Positions 11,682-64,000 of a stretch of 64,000 nucleotides of DNA are shown here, one piece after another. Both the position numbers and the translations under genes were made by a program. Within the stretch, counting starts at the first letter, position 1, and the number at the start of each line of letters is the position of its first letter. The notes beneath the pieces are model-generated. The model had not been told where the DNA came from, did not search any database, and saw only the letters and a list, made by a program, of their open reading frames with translations. Origin of the DNA: Propionispora vibrioides (GTDB lineage Bacteria; Bacillota; Negativicutes; Propionisporales; Propionisporaceae); NCBI RefSeq assembly GCF_900110485.1, contig NZ_FODY01000011.1, forward strand, positions 1 to 64,000. The letters run 5' to 3'.

Positions 11682-14600
11682 TTAGTTAAAATAATTGATA
11701 CCGGCCTGGAAGATTTGTTGGTCTTTATTGCCGGGGACATTTTTGGCAATTTGCTCGCCAGTCCGTTCGGAATGACCCATTTTACCAAGCACTCTGCCGT
11801 CCGGGCTGGTAATTCCTTCAACAGCTTCAACCGAACCGTTCGGGTTGTGGATAATATCCATGGACGGCTTACCGTCAAAATCCACATACTGAGTGGCAAT
11901 CTGGCCTTGCTGAATCAGTTGACTGATCATTGCCGGGCTGGCGACAAACCGGCCTTCACCATGCGACATGGCCACAGTGTGGATATCGCCCACTTCCACC
12001 CGGCTGAACCAGGGCGACAGGTTGGAGACCACTTTGGTCTTCGACAGGCAGGATATATGGCGCCCCAGCGTGTTATAGGTCAATGTCGGGCAGTCCGGAG
12101 TAAGGTCACGAATTTCGCCGTAGGGGACCAGTCCCAATTTGATGAGTGCCTGAAAACCGTTGCAGATGCCCAGCATCAGGCCGTCCCGCTTTTGCAGTAG
12201 TTCGGTTACCGCTTCCTTGACGCGGGGATTTCTAAACAACGTAGCGATAAACTTGCCGGAGCCGTCCGGTTCGTCACCGGCGCTAAAGCCTCCCGGCAGC
12301 ATAACAATCTGCGACTGACGGATGGCAGCTACCGTGGCGGCAATAGCCTCTTCCACAGCGGCCGATGTCAGATTGCGGATAACGAGCGTCTGCGGCAGGC
12401 CGCCGGCTTGCGCAAAGGCCCGGGCCGAGTCGTATTCGCAGTTGGTGCCGGGGAATACGGGGATAAACACCCGCGGCTTAGCGATCCGTACAGCCGGTTT
12501 GCGGCTATTCCTTCCGGAAAAGGCAACGTTCTGGGGTTGTCCTGTTGCCATGCCGGCCTGGGTCGGGAAGATTCTTTCCAGAGGCTTTTCCCAGGCGGCC
12601 TGGGCATCGCGTAAAGCAATGTCCTGTCCGTTCACGGTAAGAACAGGGTTTGCCTGTGTATAACCCAGGCAGCGGAACGGTACTTCACCAAAGGCGGCCT
12701 TTAGCTCTACGCCGGGCGCCATTTCCAATAGAATGGAACCGTAATCGGAAGCAAACAGTTCCTCTGAGGTAAACGTACCGTCAAAGCAAACGCCAATCCT
12801 GTTACCAAAGGCCATTTTGCTGATGGCTGCCGCCACCCCGCCGTAACGTACGGTATGTGTTGCCAGGACTTTTTCCTGGCGGATAAGATCATGAATCTTG
12901 CTGTAATTAGTTTCCAGCGCAGCAAAGTCAGGCAGTTGCCGTTCGTCCCGCGGCAGGGAAACCAACACTACCGGATTGCCGGCAGCTTTAAATTCCTGGG
13001 AGACAATGTTCTGGGCCTTAGCCACATCCACGGCAAAAGCAACCAGGGTAGGCGGCACCTGCAGGTCCTTGAAGGTGCCCGACATGCTGTCCTTGCCGCC
13101 GATGGCCGGAATGCCCAGCCGCTTTTGGGCGTAATAGGCACCCAGCAGGGCGCTGAACGGCTTGCCCCATTTGGCAGGGTCGTTGCCGAGCTTCTCAAAA
13201 TACTCCTGCAGCGTCAGGCGGATAGCCCGGTAATCACCGCCCAGAGCAACCACCTTCGCCACCGCTTCGATGACGGCGTACAGCGCGCCATGGAAGGGGC
13301 TCCAACTGGAAAGCTGCGGGTTATAGCCATAAGTCATGAGGGTGGCCGTACTGGTTTCGCCGTCCAACACGGGAATTTTGGCCGCCATGCCTTCAGCCGG
13401 CGTAGCCTGATAGGTACCGCCAAAGGGCATCAGGACAGTGCCGGCACCGATGGTGCTGTCAAAGCGTTCAACCAGACCTTTTTGGCTGCAGACATTCAGA
13501 TCGGCCAGCATAGCCAACCAGGCCTGCCGCAAATCACCTTTTTGCGCAAGCACAGGCTGCGGCAATTGTTTGAAGTAGTCCGAGCCGCTATCCGGTGCGG
13601 CTACCTTCACCTGGGTATATTGGGTTACCCCATTGGTATTTAAGAAGTCCCGGCTGAGGTCAACAATGGTTTTGCCACGCCAGGCCATTTGCAGGCGGTG
13701 TTTGTCGGTAACAATGGCTACCACGCTGGCTTCCAAATTCTCTGCGTCAGCATACTGGCAGAAGGTGTCTACCTGTTCGGCTGCCACGACCACGGCCATC
13801 CGTTCCTGTGACTCGGAAATAGCCAGTTCGGTGCCGTCCAATCCTTCGTATTTCTTGGGAACAGCGTCGAGATTGACGGCAAGGCCGTCGGCCAGCTCGC
13901 CGATAGCCACCGAAACACCGCCGGCGCCAAAGTCGTTGCAGCGTTTGATCAACGTGCTGACTTCGGGGTTTCTAAACAGTCGTTGCAGTTTTCGTTCAGT
14001 CGGGGCATTCCCCTTTTGCACTTCGGCGCCGCAACTGGCCAGCGATTCCTCGGTGTGCTCCTTGGAGGAACCGGTGGCGCCGCCGCAGCCGTCCCGGCCG
14101 GTCCGGCCGCCCAGCAGGATAATGACATCGCCGGGCTGCGGCTGTTCCCGGACGACGTTGCGTTTCGGCGCGGCCGCAATGACGGCGCCAATTTCCATCC
14201 GTTTGGCAATAAAGCCTTCGTCGTAGACTTCCGCTACCTGGCCGGTTGCCAGGCCGATCTGATTACCATAGGAGCTATAGCCGGCCGCCGCGCCAAGGGT
14301 AATCTTGCGCTGCGGCAGTTTGCCCGGCAGCGTGTCGGCAATGCCGGAGCGGGGATCGCCGCTGCCGGTAACCCGCATGGCCTGGTACACATAGGAACGG
14401 CCCGACAGCGGATCACGAATAGCACCGCCCAAACAGGTAGCCGCGCCGCCAAAGGGTTCGATTTCCGTCGGATGGTTATGGGTTTCGTTTTTAAACATCA
14501 CCAGCCAGTCTTCTGTCCGGCCATCTACATCGACCGGTACGACAATACTGCAGGCGTTGATTTCGTCCGATTCGTCCAAATCGGTCAACTTGCCGCTCCG

Positions 14601-15461: not shown

Positions 15462-15767
15462 TGGTTCGCCTCCATTTTATTTAAGTATGGAACACGTTGT
15501 TTATTGCTTTTAGTATGTTAACCAAAGAGTGGCATAAGCATAAGAAAAGACGGCAGCGTTCCCTCGATAACCGACATAGTCGGTCCTACAAAAAAATAAC
15601 CATAGGTATAAATTTTTATAATTATTCTGCAGAAGACGGGATTATCCTGCAAGAAATGCCGCATTTCACCCCGTCCGGCAACAGTGTTCCGCCAGCTTTG
15701 GACAAACTATCCGAAACGTCTACTGGCGGCGGCTTTTGTGAAGTATTCCGTTAGCTTGGAGATATAA
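15462..15767. other. Non-coding stretch upstream of purL
   Basis: About 300 bp without a convincing gene. It holds two hairpins: CCGACATAGTCGG (15571-15583) and a stem CCGCCAG/CTGGCGG (15689-15695/15723-15729) whose loop region carries CAAACTATCCGA, the same 12-mer found at the 18471 repeat in reverse complement. No clear purL promoter could be chosen. Confidence 0.5.
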
Positions 15768-15811
15768 AAATAAACATGCGCCTTAAAGAAGCCTAAGGCG
15801 CATGTTTATTT
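15768..15811 (-). terminator. Terminator after cheX-like gene
   Basis: A perfect 18-bp stem, 15768-15785 with 15794-15811, 8-nt loop, AT-rich base that gives a T-rich 3' end on either strand. It ends 5 nt before the stop codon of the leftward cheX-like gene. Confidence 0.85.
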
Positions 15812-18219: not shown

Positions 18220-18470
18220 GTTGTCATCATCCTCCTAAAGTTTGTACCCTAAGGGTTGTACCTTTTACATGTAAATTATACATCGTTTTCTAGTATTTAT
18301 CATCATATTTATCGCAAAGAATGTGAAAAAAATTACATGTGCTAATGTTCCACAAACTCTGAAACTACCATTTCTTCACAGGTCTTTTCCCGTAAGGCTC
18401 CATTGCCGTCGACTTACCTATAGCCGTATTTCAAAAAATTTTAATGAAGTATGGCACAGAAAACACCGTC
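18220..18470. other. Intergenic region between mdh and the acyltransferase-like gene
   Basis: Divergent promoters are expected here. On the minus strand a TATAAT (within GTATAATTTACATG, plus about 18270-18283) is a plausible -10 for mdh; nearby TTTACATGTAAA (plus about 18264-18275) is a short palindrome. On the plus strand TGCTATAAT near 18533 is an extended -10 for the next gene. Otherwise nothing recognised. Confidence 0.4.
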
Positions 18471-18505
18471 AGGGAGTGTCTCGGATAGTTTGAAGACACA
18501 CTAGG
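18471..18505. repeat. Short form of the CTAG-bounded palindromic repeat
   Basis: Inverted arms AGGGAGTGTCT (18471-18481) and AGACACACTAGG (18494-18505). On the minus strand it reads TAGTGTGTCTTCAAACTATC, close to the terminus of the full-length copy at 55711 (AGGGCGTATCTTCAAATTAT). It looks like the two ends of a long element with the middle missing. Confidence 0.6.
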
Positions 18506-31784: not shown

Positions 31785-31865
31785 CCGTCTTTTTTCGCCC
31801 TGCTTCGTTGTTGCATACCTATATCCTATATAAATACGGCTTCGCCGCCTCGCAGGCAAAAGGTC
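31785..31865. repeat. Possible degenerate copy of the palindromic repeat
   Basis: TTTTTCGCCCTGC (31791-31803) and GCAGGCAAAA (31852-31861) are inverted around a centre with CATACC and TATATAAATACGG, similar to the inner part of the copies at 38170 and 63786. Outer ends are not recognisable. Confidence 0.3.
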
Positions 31866-32600: not shown

Positions 32601-33551
32601 ATGCTGACAATCTATAAAAGCAATTATACATCCATTCGCGAGTTAACCCAGGATACCATCGAAAAAGGCGCCTGGATTAATCTGGTCAACCCGACTACCG
32701 ATGAATTACATCTGGTGACCGCCTTGGCCAATATACCCAACGACTTTCTCCGGGCGGCGCTGGACGAAGAAGAACGCTCCCGTACTGAGATTGAAGATAA
32801 CGCGCTGCTGATTATCACCAATATTCCCATTATGCGCAACAATGATAGCTATGATACACTGCCGCTTGGCATCATTCTAACAACCGAATATATCATTACC
32901 GTCTGCCTGGAACAAAATGATGTCCTGTCAGACTTTAATCCGGCTAACTGCCGGTTGTTCAGCACCTTCAAAAAAACCCGCTTTTTATTCCAGATTCTTT
33001 ATAAATCGGCCACCCTATACCTCAAATACGTTAAGCAGATCAACCGCCGGACCGACGAGATTGAACGGCATCTGCGGAAATCGGCCAAAAACCAGGATAT
33101 TTTTGAACTGCTGGATTTGCAAAAGGCTTTCACCTATTTTACCGCTTCCCTGCGCTCCAACGGCATTGTTTTGGAAAAATTGCTGCGACTGCGCTCCAAT
33201 ATCCAGCTACAGCACCTGATTACCATTTATGAAGAAGATGAGGATTTGCTGGAGGATGTTATCATCGAAAATAAGCAGGCTATTGAAATGGTGGAAATGT
33301 ACAGTAACATCCTGAACGGCATGATGGACACCTTCGCTTCCATCATTTCCAACAATCTCAATATGATCATGAAATTTTTGACCTCTGTCACCATATTGCT
33401 GGCCATTCCGACGATGATTTCCAGCTTTTTCGGTATGAATGTCGATATTCCCTGGGGCGGCGAGCTGAACGGGTTTGTCAACGTGACCGTGCTGGCCATC
33501 CTGGCCACCTGCGTGACCGCCTTCAGCCTCTGGAAAAAAAGATTTTTCTAG
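32601..33551 (+). CDS. corA: CorA-family divalent cation transporter
   Basis: 316 residues: soluble N-terminal alpha/beta domain, a long helix (about 150-250) rich in acidic residues (YEEDEDLLEDVIIENKQAIE), then two C-terminal membrane helices with the GMN signature (SSFFGMNVDIPW) in the pore loop between them and a basic tail WKKRFF. A homopentameric Mg2+ (or Co2+/Ni2+) channel. The stop codon TAG is the first triplet of a short palindromic repeat. The structured leader suggests control by metal. Confidence 0.93.
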   Translation: MLTIYKSNYTSIRELTQDTIEKGAWINLVNPTTDELHLVTALANIPNDFLRAALDEEERSRTEIEDNALLIITNIPIMRNNDSYDTLPLGIILTTEYIITVCLEQNDVLSDFNPANCRLFSTFKKTRFLFQILYKSATLYLKYVKQINRRTDEIERHLRKSAKNQDIFELLDLQKAFTYFTASLRSNGIVLEKLLRLRSNIQLQHLITIYEEDEDLLEDVIIENKQAIEMVEMYSNILNGMMDTFASIISNNLNMIMKFLTSVTILLAIPTMISSFFGMNVDIPWGGELNGFVNVTVLAILATCVTAFSLWKKRFF

Positions 33552-33611
33552 GGAGCCGCTGATTTAATGAGCCTGCCAGCCTGGCAGTGTGAATAAATCA
33601 GTGATCCCCTA
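33549..33611. repeat. Short palindromic repeat whose TAG is the corA stop codon
   Basis: TAGGGAGCCGCTGATTTAAT at 33549 and, in reverse complement, TAGGGGATCACTGATTTATT at the right end (33592-33611), joined by a short GC-rich centre CCAGCCTGGCAG. These are the termini seen on the full-length copy 35126-35291, so this is an internally deleted form of 63 bp. Confidence 0.75.
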
Positions 33612-34479: not shown

Positions 34480-34645
34480 TAGGGAAGCGCTACTTTAATA
34501 AGCCTGTCGACATGGCGAGAGATTGTTTCTCCGGTAAGGCAGCAAAACCTTGGAATAGCAGGAATCTTCCAGCGTTTTACCGTTGCAGCCAGCCAGAAAA
34601 AAACTCCGCCGCAACGCACAGTGCGAATAAAGCAACGGTTCCCTA
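34480..34645. repeat. Full-length CTAG-bounded palindromic repeat (166 bp)
   Basis: Left end TAGGGAAGCGCTACTTTAAT and, in reverse complement, right end TAGGGAACCGTTGCTTTATT. Inside, GGCGAGAGATTGTTTC and CAGCAAAACCTTGGAATAGC recur in opposite orientation in the copy at 35126-35291. Right flank is CTAG. It occupies most of the gap between the small peptides and the EVE gene. Confidence 0.8.
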
Positions 34646-34731
34646 GAATACATGCCCTTTTCTTGCAGCATACTTTTGATATACTAAAGTTAATTGTTTA
34701 TCAGAACATAAACAGAGAGGGGTATTGATTT

Positions 34732-35139
34732 ATGGCCTACTGGTTGCTTAAAACCGAACCGGAAACCTTCAGCTACGGTGATTTAGAACGCCTGCGGCGC
34801 GACCGCTGGAACGGAGTGAAAAATTTTGCCGCCCTGAAACACCTGCGGCAGATGCACCCCGGCGACTTAGCCTTTATTTATCATACCGGCAAGGAAAAAG
34901 CCATCGTCGGCGTGGCCGAGATCGTTACCGAGGCGTATCCTGATCCGGCAGAAAGCGATGAACGCTTTATCGTAGCCGATGTTATACCACGCTACAGTCT
35001 GAAACGTCCGGTGACACTAAAAGAAATAAAAGCAGATCCTCTGTTTCAGGCTTGGGAGCTTGTCCGCCTGTCCCGTCTGTCGGTCATGCCTGTGCCCGAA
35101 ACACTTTGGAACGCCATTCTCTCCCTAGGTAGCCACTGA
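34732..35139 (+). CDS. EVE-domain protein
   Basis: 135 residues, a single PUA-like EVE domain: MAYWLLKTEPETFSYGDLER at the start, WNGVKNFAALKHLRQMHPGD, FIYHTGKEKAIVGVAEI and FQAWELVRLSRLSVMPVP. The family binds modified bases or RNA ends and is often linked to quality control or restriction; no such neighbour is present. GAGAGGGG precedes the ATG. Its last three codons and stop (GSH then TGA) lie within the repeat that starts at 35126, so the C-terminus has been altered by that repeat. Confidence 0.92.
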   Translation: MAYWLLKTEPETFSYGDLERLRRDRWNGVKNFAALKHLRQMHPGDLAFIYHTGKEKAIVGVAEIVTEAYPDPAESDERFIVADVIPRYSLKRPVTLKEIKADPLFQAWELVRLSRLSVMPVPETLWNAILSLGSH

Positions 35140-35291
35140 TTAATTCACACTGCGCGTCCTGACGGATCTTTTTCCGCCTGGCTGCGTCAGCAAAACCTTG
35201 CAATAGGGACCGCTATTCCTGCGGTTTTACTTCCTTGCCGATCGAAAAAATCTCTCGCCAGCCCGACAGGTTCATTTAATCAGTGGTTACC
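35126..35291. repeat. Full-length palindromic repeat (about 165 bp) at the EVE gene 3' end
   Basis: Left end TAGGTAGCCACTGATTAATT; right end in reverse complement GGTAACCACTGATTAAATGA. The inner arms hold CAGCAAAACCTTGCAATAG and TATTCCTGCGGTTTTAC around the centre. Relative to 34480-34645 the internal part is inverted (GCGAGAGATT there, AATCTCTCGC here). Left flank is CTAG. Confidence 0.85.
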
Positions 35292-35445
35292 TTGCGGACA
35301 AGCCTTATTAACATACCGTTAATTTATCGTAAACAGTCTTCTCCTTTGGCAAAAAACACAGGAAAATGTCAGTTTATGGCGAATTCCTTCTTATCATAAG
35401 CAGTTTATCTGCCCATTATATGAGGCCAAAGGAGGAGTTGACTGT

Positions 35446-37626: not shown

Positions 37627-38172
37627 ATGCTTATCGGTGAAAAGGTAATCTTACGGACGGTGAAAGAAAGTGATTTGCCACTGCTTTATGACCTGCTCAG
37701 CACGGTATATGATAAAGGCGATTACTGGCTGATTGATATTCCTGACGAACCCGGGTTCCGGCGGGCCTTTGAAAAAACCGGCTTCTGGCAGGAGGACTTC
37801 GGCCGGATGATCCTTACCGACCATGACGACAACCTGCTGGGCGAAATTTTCTACTCCCGTGTGTCCGACTACCGCACAGGCTATGAAATCGGCTACCAGC
37901 TCTTCCGCCCCCTGTCACGGGGCAACGGCATCATGTCGGAAGCACTGCGGCTGTTTACCAATTATCTCTTTATGGTCCTGCCCATCCCCCGTCTGCAAAT
38001 CACAGTCATTCAGGGTAACCTGCCTAGCCGCCGGGTGGCGGAAAAGTGCGGCTACGTCTATCGCGGCACACTGCGCAACGCCGTATTCCATACCGGCAGC
38101 TACCACGACCTGGAGCTGTTCGACCTGCTGCGGGAAGAATGGCAGACCTTTCGTTTAATTACTTCTAACTAG
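37627..38172 (+). CDS. GNAT-family N-acetyltransferase (RimJ/RimL type)
   Basis: 181 residues: MLIGEKVILRTVKESDLPLL at the start, then GEIFYSRVSDYRTGYEIGYQ and the acetyl-CoA region LSRGNGIMSEALRLFTNYLF, LQITVIQGNLPSRRVAEKCG and a C-terminal strand. Its acceptor (protein N-terminus, antibiotic or small amine) cannot be told. AAGGAGG before ATG 37627; the longer in-frame start at 37522 is upstream of the receptor terminator and is rejected. Its TAG stop is the first triplet of a palindromic repeat. Confidence 0.9.
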   Translation: MLIGEKVILRTVKESDLPLLYDLLSTVYDKGDYWLIDIPDEPGFRRAFEKTGFWQEDFGRMILTDHDDNLLGEIFYSRVSDYRTGYEIGYQLFRPLSRGNGIMSEALRLFTNYLFMVLPIPRLQITVIQGNLPSRRVAEKCGYVYRGTLRNAVFHTGSYHDLELFDLLREEWQTFRLITSN

Positions 38173-38330
38173 TACCTTGTCAATCCTAAAACTGTAGAAT
38201 AATGGCGAGGCTATTTTTCGCAAGACAGGGCGAAGGAAGGAGGCATACCGGAAGTATGCTGACTGACGACAACAAAGGCTTGTGGAAAATAGACCGTCAG
38301 TATTCACGGAATTAGGGTTGATAAGGTACT
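38170..38330. repeat. Full-length palindromic repeat (161 bp) whose TAG is the GNAT stop codon
   Basis: Left end AGTACCTTGTCAATCCTAA (38171-38189) and right end, in reverse complement, AGTACCTTATCAACCCTAA (2 mismatches in 19). Second-level arms GGCTATTTTTCGCAAG and CTTGTGGAAAATAGACC, and a central mini-palindrome CATACCGGAAGTATG. Left flank is CTAG. Confidence 0.85.
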
Positions 38331-38346
38331 CGACAACATTTTAGAG

Positions 38347-38394
38347 CATAAAACAGCCGGCAGGCGTCCGAGGGCGCCTGCCGGCTGTTTTATG
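38347..38394. terminator. Strong bidirectional terminator between GNAT and addA
   Basis: A 20-bp stem, 38347-38366 with 38375-38394, loop of 8 nt, flanked by A/T-rich base pairs that serve as T tracts in both directions. Confidence 0.85.
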
Positions 38395-38472
38395 CTTAGT
38401 ACTCCACCAATTTTTAAAACAGAAATTACTGACGGTCAACATGTCGCCATCATCCTTCCACCGAATGAGACA

Positions 38473-55388: not shown

Positions 55389-55710
55389 GCCGCTCCCTCA
55401 TCTTCATAGCATACTGTCCATTTATACTTTTGCCAACAGCCGGGCCGTCACGTCAGCACAAAAAGGCGGTATTATTACCCGGCAATATTTTACAAATATT
55501 ATACCATGAACCTAACGGGTACTTAGTTAAAAATTTTACAAATTTTATGACCGCCAATACCATTATCCCTCTGCTCGCTACTTATTAAAAAAGTGCAGAT
55601 TTTTTTACCAATTTATAGGATAAAGCAGGATTTATTTGAATATTGTTGAATGTAGGAATTAATTAATGTATTTTCTGGATATTCTGCTTTTTCATATTAT
55701 TTAGCGACCC
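55389..55710. other. Non-coding stretch upstream of the phosphatase gene
   Basis: AT-rich in its right half (55540-55705), no ORF of note. It should hold the leftward promoter of the phosphatase gene; no clear -35/-10 pair was chosen. The palindromic repeat follows at 55711. Confidence 0.4.
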
Positions 55711-55875
55711 AGGGCGTATCTTCAAATTATCCAAACATCCACTGACGGTGATCTTTACGCTATACTTCGTTGCAATCGCGGGAAATAAGCTTCATTAATT
55801 CCGGCGGAATTTTGCCTCGTCTGTCACGGAAATCACTCGCCATTGACTATTTCGCTAATTTTGAGGACACACCCT
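55711..55875. repeat. Full-length palindromic repeat (165 bp)
   Basis: Left end AGGGCGTATCTTCAAATTAT; right end in reverse complement AGGGTGTGTCCTCAAAATTA. Centre ATTCCGGCGGAAT. Right flank is CCCTAT rather than CTAG. The short unit at 18471 matches these termini. Confidence 0.8.
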
Positions 55876-55952
55876 ATTTCCTGTCTATTTTATCTATTTT
55901 CTACTTGTACTTTAGTCCTGATTATGTACGAATCCCAGAAGGAGTTGCTGCT

Positions 55953-58802: not shown

Positions 58803-58935
58803 CCTAGGGAACTTTAATACGACAGACCACCGGCAAATCCTGCCGCGACCTGAGTGCTCCGCCAACTTTGAAATTGCAGTTTCAGCGTTGGCGGAACAAC
58901 ACTAGAATTAATGCCTGCCGTTATACCGGCAGGCA
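58803..58935. other. Non-coding hairpin-rich stretch
   Basis: CTAGGGAACTTTAATA (58804-58819) matches the end of the repeat at 34480, suggesting a fragment of that family. Then an inverted repeat TCCGCCAAC / GTTGGCGGA (58858-58866 / 58887-58895) and a stem TGCCTGCCG / CGGCAGGCA (58912-58920 / 58927-58935) that may end transcription of the leftward gene at 58968. Confidence 0.45.
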
Positions 58936-59357: not shown

Positions 59358-59527
59358 TCCGAACCCTTGCCTGGGGCGAGAATTAAGGTTAGGCTGCAAG
59401 GATTTTTTTATCCTGCACGGCGGAGGAGCCGCACCTACCGGACCTATGTAAAGTGACATAACGAAGCCGGGCAGAAAAAGATTCGTAAGAAAACCAAAGC
59501 TTTGATCCAGTCAAGGTACTGGTACTA
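59358..59527. repeat. Diverged full-length palindromic repeat whose TAG is the ABC gene stop codon
   Basis: Right end, read on the minus strand, TAGTACCAGTACCTTGACTG shares AGTACCTTG with the copy at 38170; left end CCTTGCCTGGGGCG pairs with it imperfectly. Inner arms (ATTTTTTTATCCTGCACGGC and GCCGGGCAGAAAAAGATTC) flank the centre CCTACCGGACCTATG. The ABC exporter gene ends in the TAG at 59525-59527. Confidence 0.65.
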
Positions 59528-63746: not shown

Positions 63747-63785
63747 TCGTGCTCCTCCTTCACTGTCTGTCATATGGTGACAGTC

Positions 63786-63948
63786 AGGGCGTGTGGGAAC
63801 GCGTTGAATTGCTCAGATTTCGAGCCGATTTTTCGCCGGACAAGGCAAATTTCCGCAGGAATACCGGACGTATTTCAAGGAAATTTAACGCAGTACGGCG
63901 GAAAATACGCCGGAAGATGGACAATGAACACCCGTGTCCACACGCCCT
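63786..63948. repeat. Full-length palindromic repeat (163 bp) upstream of hemB
   Basis: Left end AGGGCGTGTGGGAACGCG; right end in reverse complement AGGGCGTGTGGACACGGG. Inner arms TTTTTCGCCGGACAAGGC and GTACGGCGGAAAATACGCCG, second arms AAATTTCCGC/AAGGAAATTT, centre AATACCGGACGTATT. Right flank is CTAG. The remaining 50 bases to the window edge hold nothing recognised. Confidence 0.85.
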
Positions 63949-64000
63949 AGGTCGAAGAACCGGCAAAAGCCACTGCTCCGAACCATGTGACTGTTAATTA

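Follow-up and report, generated by a model that had tools for sequence, protein, structure and literature searches.

Miniature inverted-repeat transposable elements (MITEs) are usually thought of as decayed insertion sequences (ISs) whose interior does not matter, and their transcripts commonly form stable stem-loops (PMC10969869). Within the IS5 family, IS427-group elements mostly make 2-bp target duplications (PMC3281130), and IS630/Tc1-mariner-mobilised MITEs (Nezha- or RUP-like) also use TA. Correia elements of Neisseria are TA-associated, gene-less, palindromic and intergenic (PMC10969869), a description that probably also fits Nezha (cyanobacteria), RUP (pneumococcus) and YPAL (Yersinia). 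To our knowledge, and without a sequence comparison, none of these has been described with a core conserved across phyla under exchanged ends. Here, we analyzed a repeat family in a 64,000-nucleotide stretch of Propionispora vibrioides (GCF_900110485.1, contig NZ_FODY01000011.1, positions 1 to 64,000; hereafter the window), for which an earlier note had proposed a non-autonomous, MITE-like mobile family or a cruciform-forming element of about 160 bp with a nested, conserved centre and several end subgroups. Our results support a MITE-like family whose conserved part is the interior and whose ends differ, matching those of IS5-family transposons in the cases that could be checked.

We first confirmed that the repeats are real. 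The six full-length copies that the note placed at 34480, 35126, 38170, 55711, 59358 and 63786 were all hit by a covariance model of the central ~100 nt (R1), which was built from A-type, B-type and E-type copies and from relatives outside the genus. The 63786 copy was a training sequence of R1, while the other five were not, although 35126 belongs to a subfamily (A2) that was represented. In 285 kb of control virus contigs, R1 gave one hit, which is itself a true copy of the element. One A-type query found 69 matches and one C-type query 49 matches in the 4.43-Mb genome, and the A-type end pattern occurred 232 times with none for the reversed control pattern, giving at least about 115 A-type copies alone. 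A de novo scan of 550 kb revealed 94 palindromes of 145-180 bp against 1 in a 3-mer-shuffled control, although this sample was taken around known copies and is therefore enriched.

The nested centre and the subgroups with different ends were likewise confirmed. Copies are mostly 158-168 bp and fall into subfamilies with the ends TA/GGGAACC(A/G)CTGATT (A1), TA/GGTAACC (A2), TA/GGGCGTGT(C/T)TTCAAACT (B), TA/GTACCTTGTCA (C), TA/GTGCTCC(A/G)CCAAC (D) and CA/GGGCGTGTGG (E), plus singletons. R1 also found untrained C-type, D-type and unclassified elements, though some detections were weak (E 1e-3 to 1e-5 for D and singletons). Of the minor copies listed in the note, those at 33549 and 18471 were identified as partial copies, whereas 26229 is at most a 24-bp end-only palindrome and was not detected, and a degenerate copy proposed near 31785 was not detected by any profile. 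Core-less short copies had mostly unique junctions, suggesting one-off deletions rather than amplifying families. Elements of different subfamilies were found inserted next to or inside one another, often sharing a CTAG, in the stretches L028, L070 (16091-16425) and L072 (13142-13464) and at window position 58852.

Copies of the repeat family in the window. G002 is a sister genome, about 94% identical over this region; E values are those of the R1 covariance model.
Positions	Strand	Element	Flanks	E value	In G002
34480..34645	+	A1-type, full-length (GGGAAGC...GGTTCCC, 162 bp)	TA/TA	0.007	shared, old copy
35126..35293	-	A2-type, full-length (164 bp); overlaps the end of the preceding EVE-domain-like ORF	left TA, right TT	5e-20	imprecisely deleted (TAGGTAACCA remnant); not an empty site
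38170..38331	+	C-type, full-length (158 bp)	left TA, right TC	4e-7	clean empty site (AACTA/GATAAC)
55710..55876	-	B-type, full-length (163 bp)	CA/TA	4e-6	shared
59359..59521	+	C-type, degenerate full-length (about 159 bp)		0.003	shared, diverging faster than its flanks
63785..63949	+	E-type, full-length (161 bp)	CA/TA	8e-23	empty site (GTCA/TAAGTC)
33549..33611	+	A-type, 63 bp, internally deleted (ends only)			present
18418..18503	+	right part of a B-type copy; D-type fragment adjoins at 18341-18434			
15695..15777	-	B-type fragment			
38395..38470	-	D-type fragment			
58852..58901	.	D-type short form, 50 bp			79-bp A-type short copy inserted at a CTAG beside it

To investigate whether the repeats are mobile, we examined their flanks and the corresponding sites in G002. 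TA stands on both sides in 17/28 A1, 11/17 A2, 15/21 C and 7/7 D copies, but only in 3/10 B copies, with mostly Y before the left and R after the right TA (target YTAR, with a preference for CTAG), and longer duplications were not seen. In addition to the two empty sites in the window, a search with the joined flanks of about 20 elements elsewhere, in which two C-type sites (L025, L028) were lost, gave five further sites contiguous in G002 (three A, one C, one D), which were re-aligned independently. One A1 site was perfectly clean (TTTACTAGGAGG vs TTTACTA[GGGAACC..GGTTCCC]TAGGAGG), while some of the other joins were blurred by divergence, and the site at 63785 fits the absence of a duplication as well as the loss of the left TA. 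Collectively, the copy number, inverted ends, TA flanks, intergenic location and empty sites support mobile insertions.

We next sought a transposase with matching ends. None was found in the host genome: it has no IS630 (DDE_3) or DUF4096 transposase, its DDE_Tnp_1 and DUF772 hits are IS1182-like with unrelated ends, and a pair of C-type copies 983 bp apart in the stretch L041 holds no transposase. Insertions are recent, and the partner may be lost or in an assembly gap. A multi-copy IS1182-like element with ends TCAGCTTGTTGAAAAAGTAT sits at contig ends and breaks both assemblies (contigs C4, C12 and C45 of G000, and G002 contig ends; L125-L127, L233-L245). By contrast, matching ends recur in other organisms. 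The end of the Rhodobacteraceae members, TAGGGTCAGGACCCATTAATC, starts an IS5-family-like ORF in all six virus contigs with AGGGTCAGGACCC(A/G)TT(A/G)ATC, and the one long enough to be tested gave Pfam DUF4096 (2e-21), DDE_Tnp_1 (2e-11) and NCBIfam IS5_3. The B end, CTAGGGCGTGTCTTCAAA, bounds a 915-bp Streptomyces IS with DUF4096 and DDE_Tnp_1, as well as a 167-bp palindromic element on an Embleya plasmid (L271, 1502-1668) and a ~160-bp one on a plasmid of the cyanobacterium Allocoleopsis (L272, 1502-1663), the interiors of which were not recognised by R1. For the A type the match is partial: the A end precedes truncated IS5-like ORFs in contigs L134 and L192, the latter cut at the contig end, and L176 shows the same arrangement up to its cut-off, but this assignment rests on N-terminal motifs and not on a profile hit. 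Several other virus-contig A-end hits were chance matches in coding sequence, the IS-specific A end gave one hit in 380 genomes of the class, a chance terminator-like palindrome, and plasmid and phage searches with the A-type element and IS pieces gave nothing. No informative hit was obtained for the C and D ends, and no IS is known for the C, D or E ends, of which E was not searched. Between IS and repeat, only the terminal ~18-21 bp are shared; the interior is not a deleted IS but a conserved hairpin found under several different ends and in several phyla.

The unexpected finding was the breadth of conservation of this interior. An exact pattern from the core found Rhodobacteraceae, Hyphomicrobiales, a gammaproteobacterial MAG, a Gemmatimonadota MAG and a Negativicutes MAG, and R1 found a Clostridia plasmid copy (92.9 bits, E 3e-22) and Pseudosulfitobacter plasmid copies. 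The pattern itself fixes the centre of the copies it finds, so that their conservation there is by selection of the search, whereas the flanking loops and stems are not fixed by it. Many hits are MAG contigs, where binning errors are possible, but isolate genomes or plasmids (Thalassovita, Thiosulfatihalobacter, Phaeobacter, Pseudosulfitobacter, Subdoligranulum) agree. In several Rhodobacteraceae stretches (L145, L150, L154, L156, L163, L258, L270) we observed longer versions of ~265-290 bp in which the end stem encloses two hairpins, and in L258 and L270 the second is a weaker R1 match on the opposite strand. A complete C-type element lies at 72-172 of L138 (IMG/VR contig 3300042934_001169), a contig classed as viral and a possible vehicle for spread.

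In nearly all families the consensus is predicted to fold end to end into one stem. On 27 core sequences from several phyla, 93.3% of pair cells were standard, 22 of 28 pairs had changes on both sides and 123 cells showed double changes; sliding the partner dropped pairing to 36-58%, and none of 500 shuffles reached the values, although relatedness inflates the shuffle test, so that the slid control and the number of pairs matter most. The small internal loops (CAAGG opposite ACGCAG; GCAGG opposite TCAAG) are nearly invariant. One strand folded 5-31 kcal/mol better in all nine families compared, as in A1 (-91.5 vs -74.3), C (-74.6 vs -49.0), D (-86.4 vs -60.9), the gammaproteobacterial type (-82.0 vs -50.8) and the Rhodobacteraceae member L157 (-102.3 vs -97.8), and 80 of 86 copies showed the same direction. 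In the outer arms, which differ between families, G.U pairs number 44 on that strand and 9 on the other, although A1, A2 and the f10 type are related and these are therefore not nine independent counts; the new-mutation G.U excess within copies was modest and uneven between families (254 vs 175). This asymmetry is not expected of a symmetric DNA palindrome and points to a single-stranded form (RNA or ssDNA) rather than a symmetric cruciform.

To determine the level at which selection may act, we compared older and younger copies. The copies at 34480, 55711 and 59358, which are shared with G002 and hence older, have lost fold and R1 score (21-34 bits, and 14 bits for the G002 orthologue of 55711), in comparison to 88-96 bits for three A-type sites that are empty in G002. 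This compares partly different subfamilies, and C- and D-type copies score low with R1 even when young. Decay also explains why R1 with default filters found nothing in the syntenic contig of G002 although copies are there. Copies lie between genes (4 of about 74 mostly inside called ORFs, at a coding fraction of 82%), in contexts like background and without orientation bias relative to the host strand (31 same, 23 opposite), giving no direct sign of a role in host transcripts. These observations suggest that selection acts on the active element and not on the host locus.

We consider it likely, with reasonable confidence, that the repeats are a superfamily of MITEs, each a gene-less ~160-bp unit inserted at a TA that is normally present on both sides, and most likely moved by an IS5-family transposase acting in trans; the identity of the ends supports this for the B and Rhodobacteraceae types and partly for the A type. 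We infer that the strand-specific fold, more likely in RNA than in ssDNA given the wobble pairs and purine-rich loops, although only by a narrow margin, is needed in cis for the element to multiply or be tolerated, and that ends are exchanged over time to match whatever IS5-family transposase is available, perhaps because a hairpin lets one arm template the other. The conserved interior suggests that small palindromic repeats could be persistent replicators with a functional fold, and R1 could be used to annotate many unlabelled intergenic repeats. A bolder and doubtful reading, which remains compatible with the evidence, is that the module is a trans-phylum selfish RNA (or ssDNA) hairpin and the true persistent replicator, surviving by repeatedly re-ending itself with the terminal repeats of whichever IS5-family transposase is present, with its fold acting in its own mobilisation.

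Among the alternatives, the least unlikely is that these are ordinary MITEs whose palindrome is kept only by mutational correction (template switching between arms) and shared descent, the conserved core having no function. The perfecting of quasi-palindromes by mutation would give double changes, and copies do decay after insertion. However, correction should erase internal loops and G.U pairs, yet the loops are nearly invariant across phyla and G.U pairs are concentrated on one strand, and the Embleya element, despite its different interior, also folds much better on one strand (-156.5 vs -123.8). It is also unlikely that one DNA strand folds and is processed as a hairpin, as in IS200/IS605 or attC-like systems, with TA as cleavage context rather than a duplication; the strand-specific fold, the 63785 site, which looks like an insertion without duplication, and some CA/TA flanks fit this reading, whereas the TA on both sides of most A, C and D copies and the ends equal to those of IS5-family DDE elements do not, although the genome was not searched for Y1 (HUH) transposases.

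Mobilisation by an IS630/Tc1-mariner transposase would fit the TA target with its CTAG preference but appears very unlikely, given that the genome has no DDE_3 domain and that the ends that could be matched are those of IS5-family elements. Least likely of all are dispersed regulatory or terminator RNA modules selected by the host, since the intergenic location and very stable folds are offset by the absence of orientation bias, the background-like gene context, the polymorphism between sister species and the loss of the fold in resident copies. ERIC (126-127 bp) looks similar in plan, but an ERIC model found no window element and no other member searched, and R1 gave only marginal hits on 2 of 9 ERIC copies, so that homology is not shown. 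The element had no match above the gathering score in Rfam, and its core string occurred in none of the papers searched, which says little.

Other features were noted. A 25-bp near-perfect hairpin directly after the 38170 element (38345-38396), conserved in G002, is probably a transcription terminator, and a stretch at ~36965-37110 matches dozens of places in two relatives at 72-83% identity, probably reflecting a conserved domain of a multigene family. At ~62764, G002 carries 92 extra bases (TCGCAGCACTCTGTGTCACTATAACC...) not evidently related to this family. A cobalamin riboswitch (Rfam RF00174, 100 bits) was found at 12143-12316 of the stretch L062.
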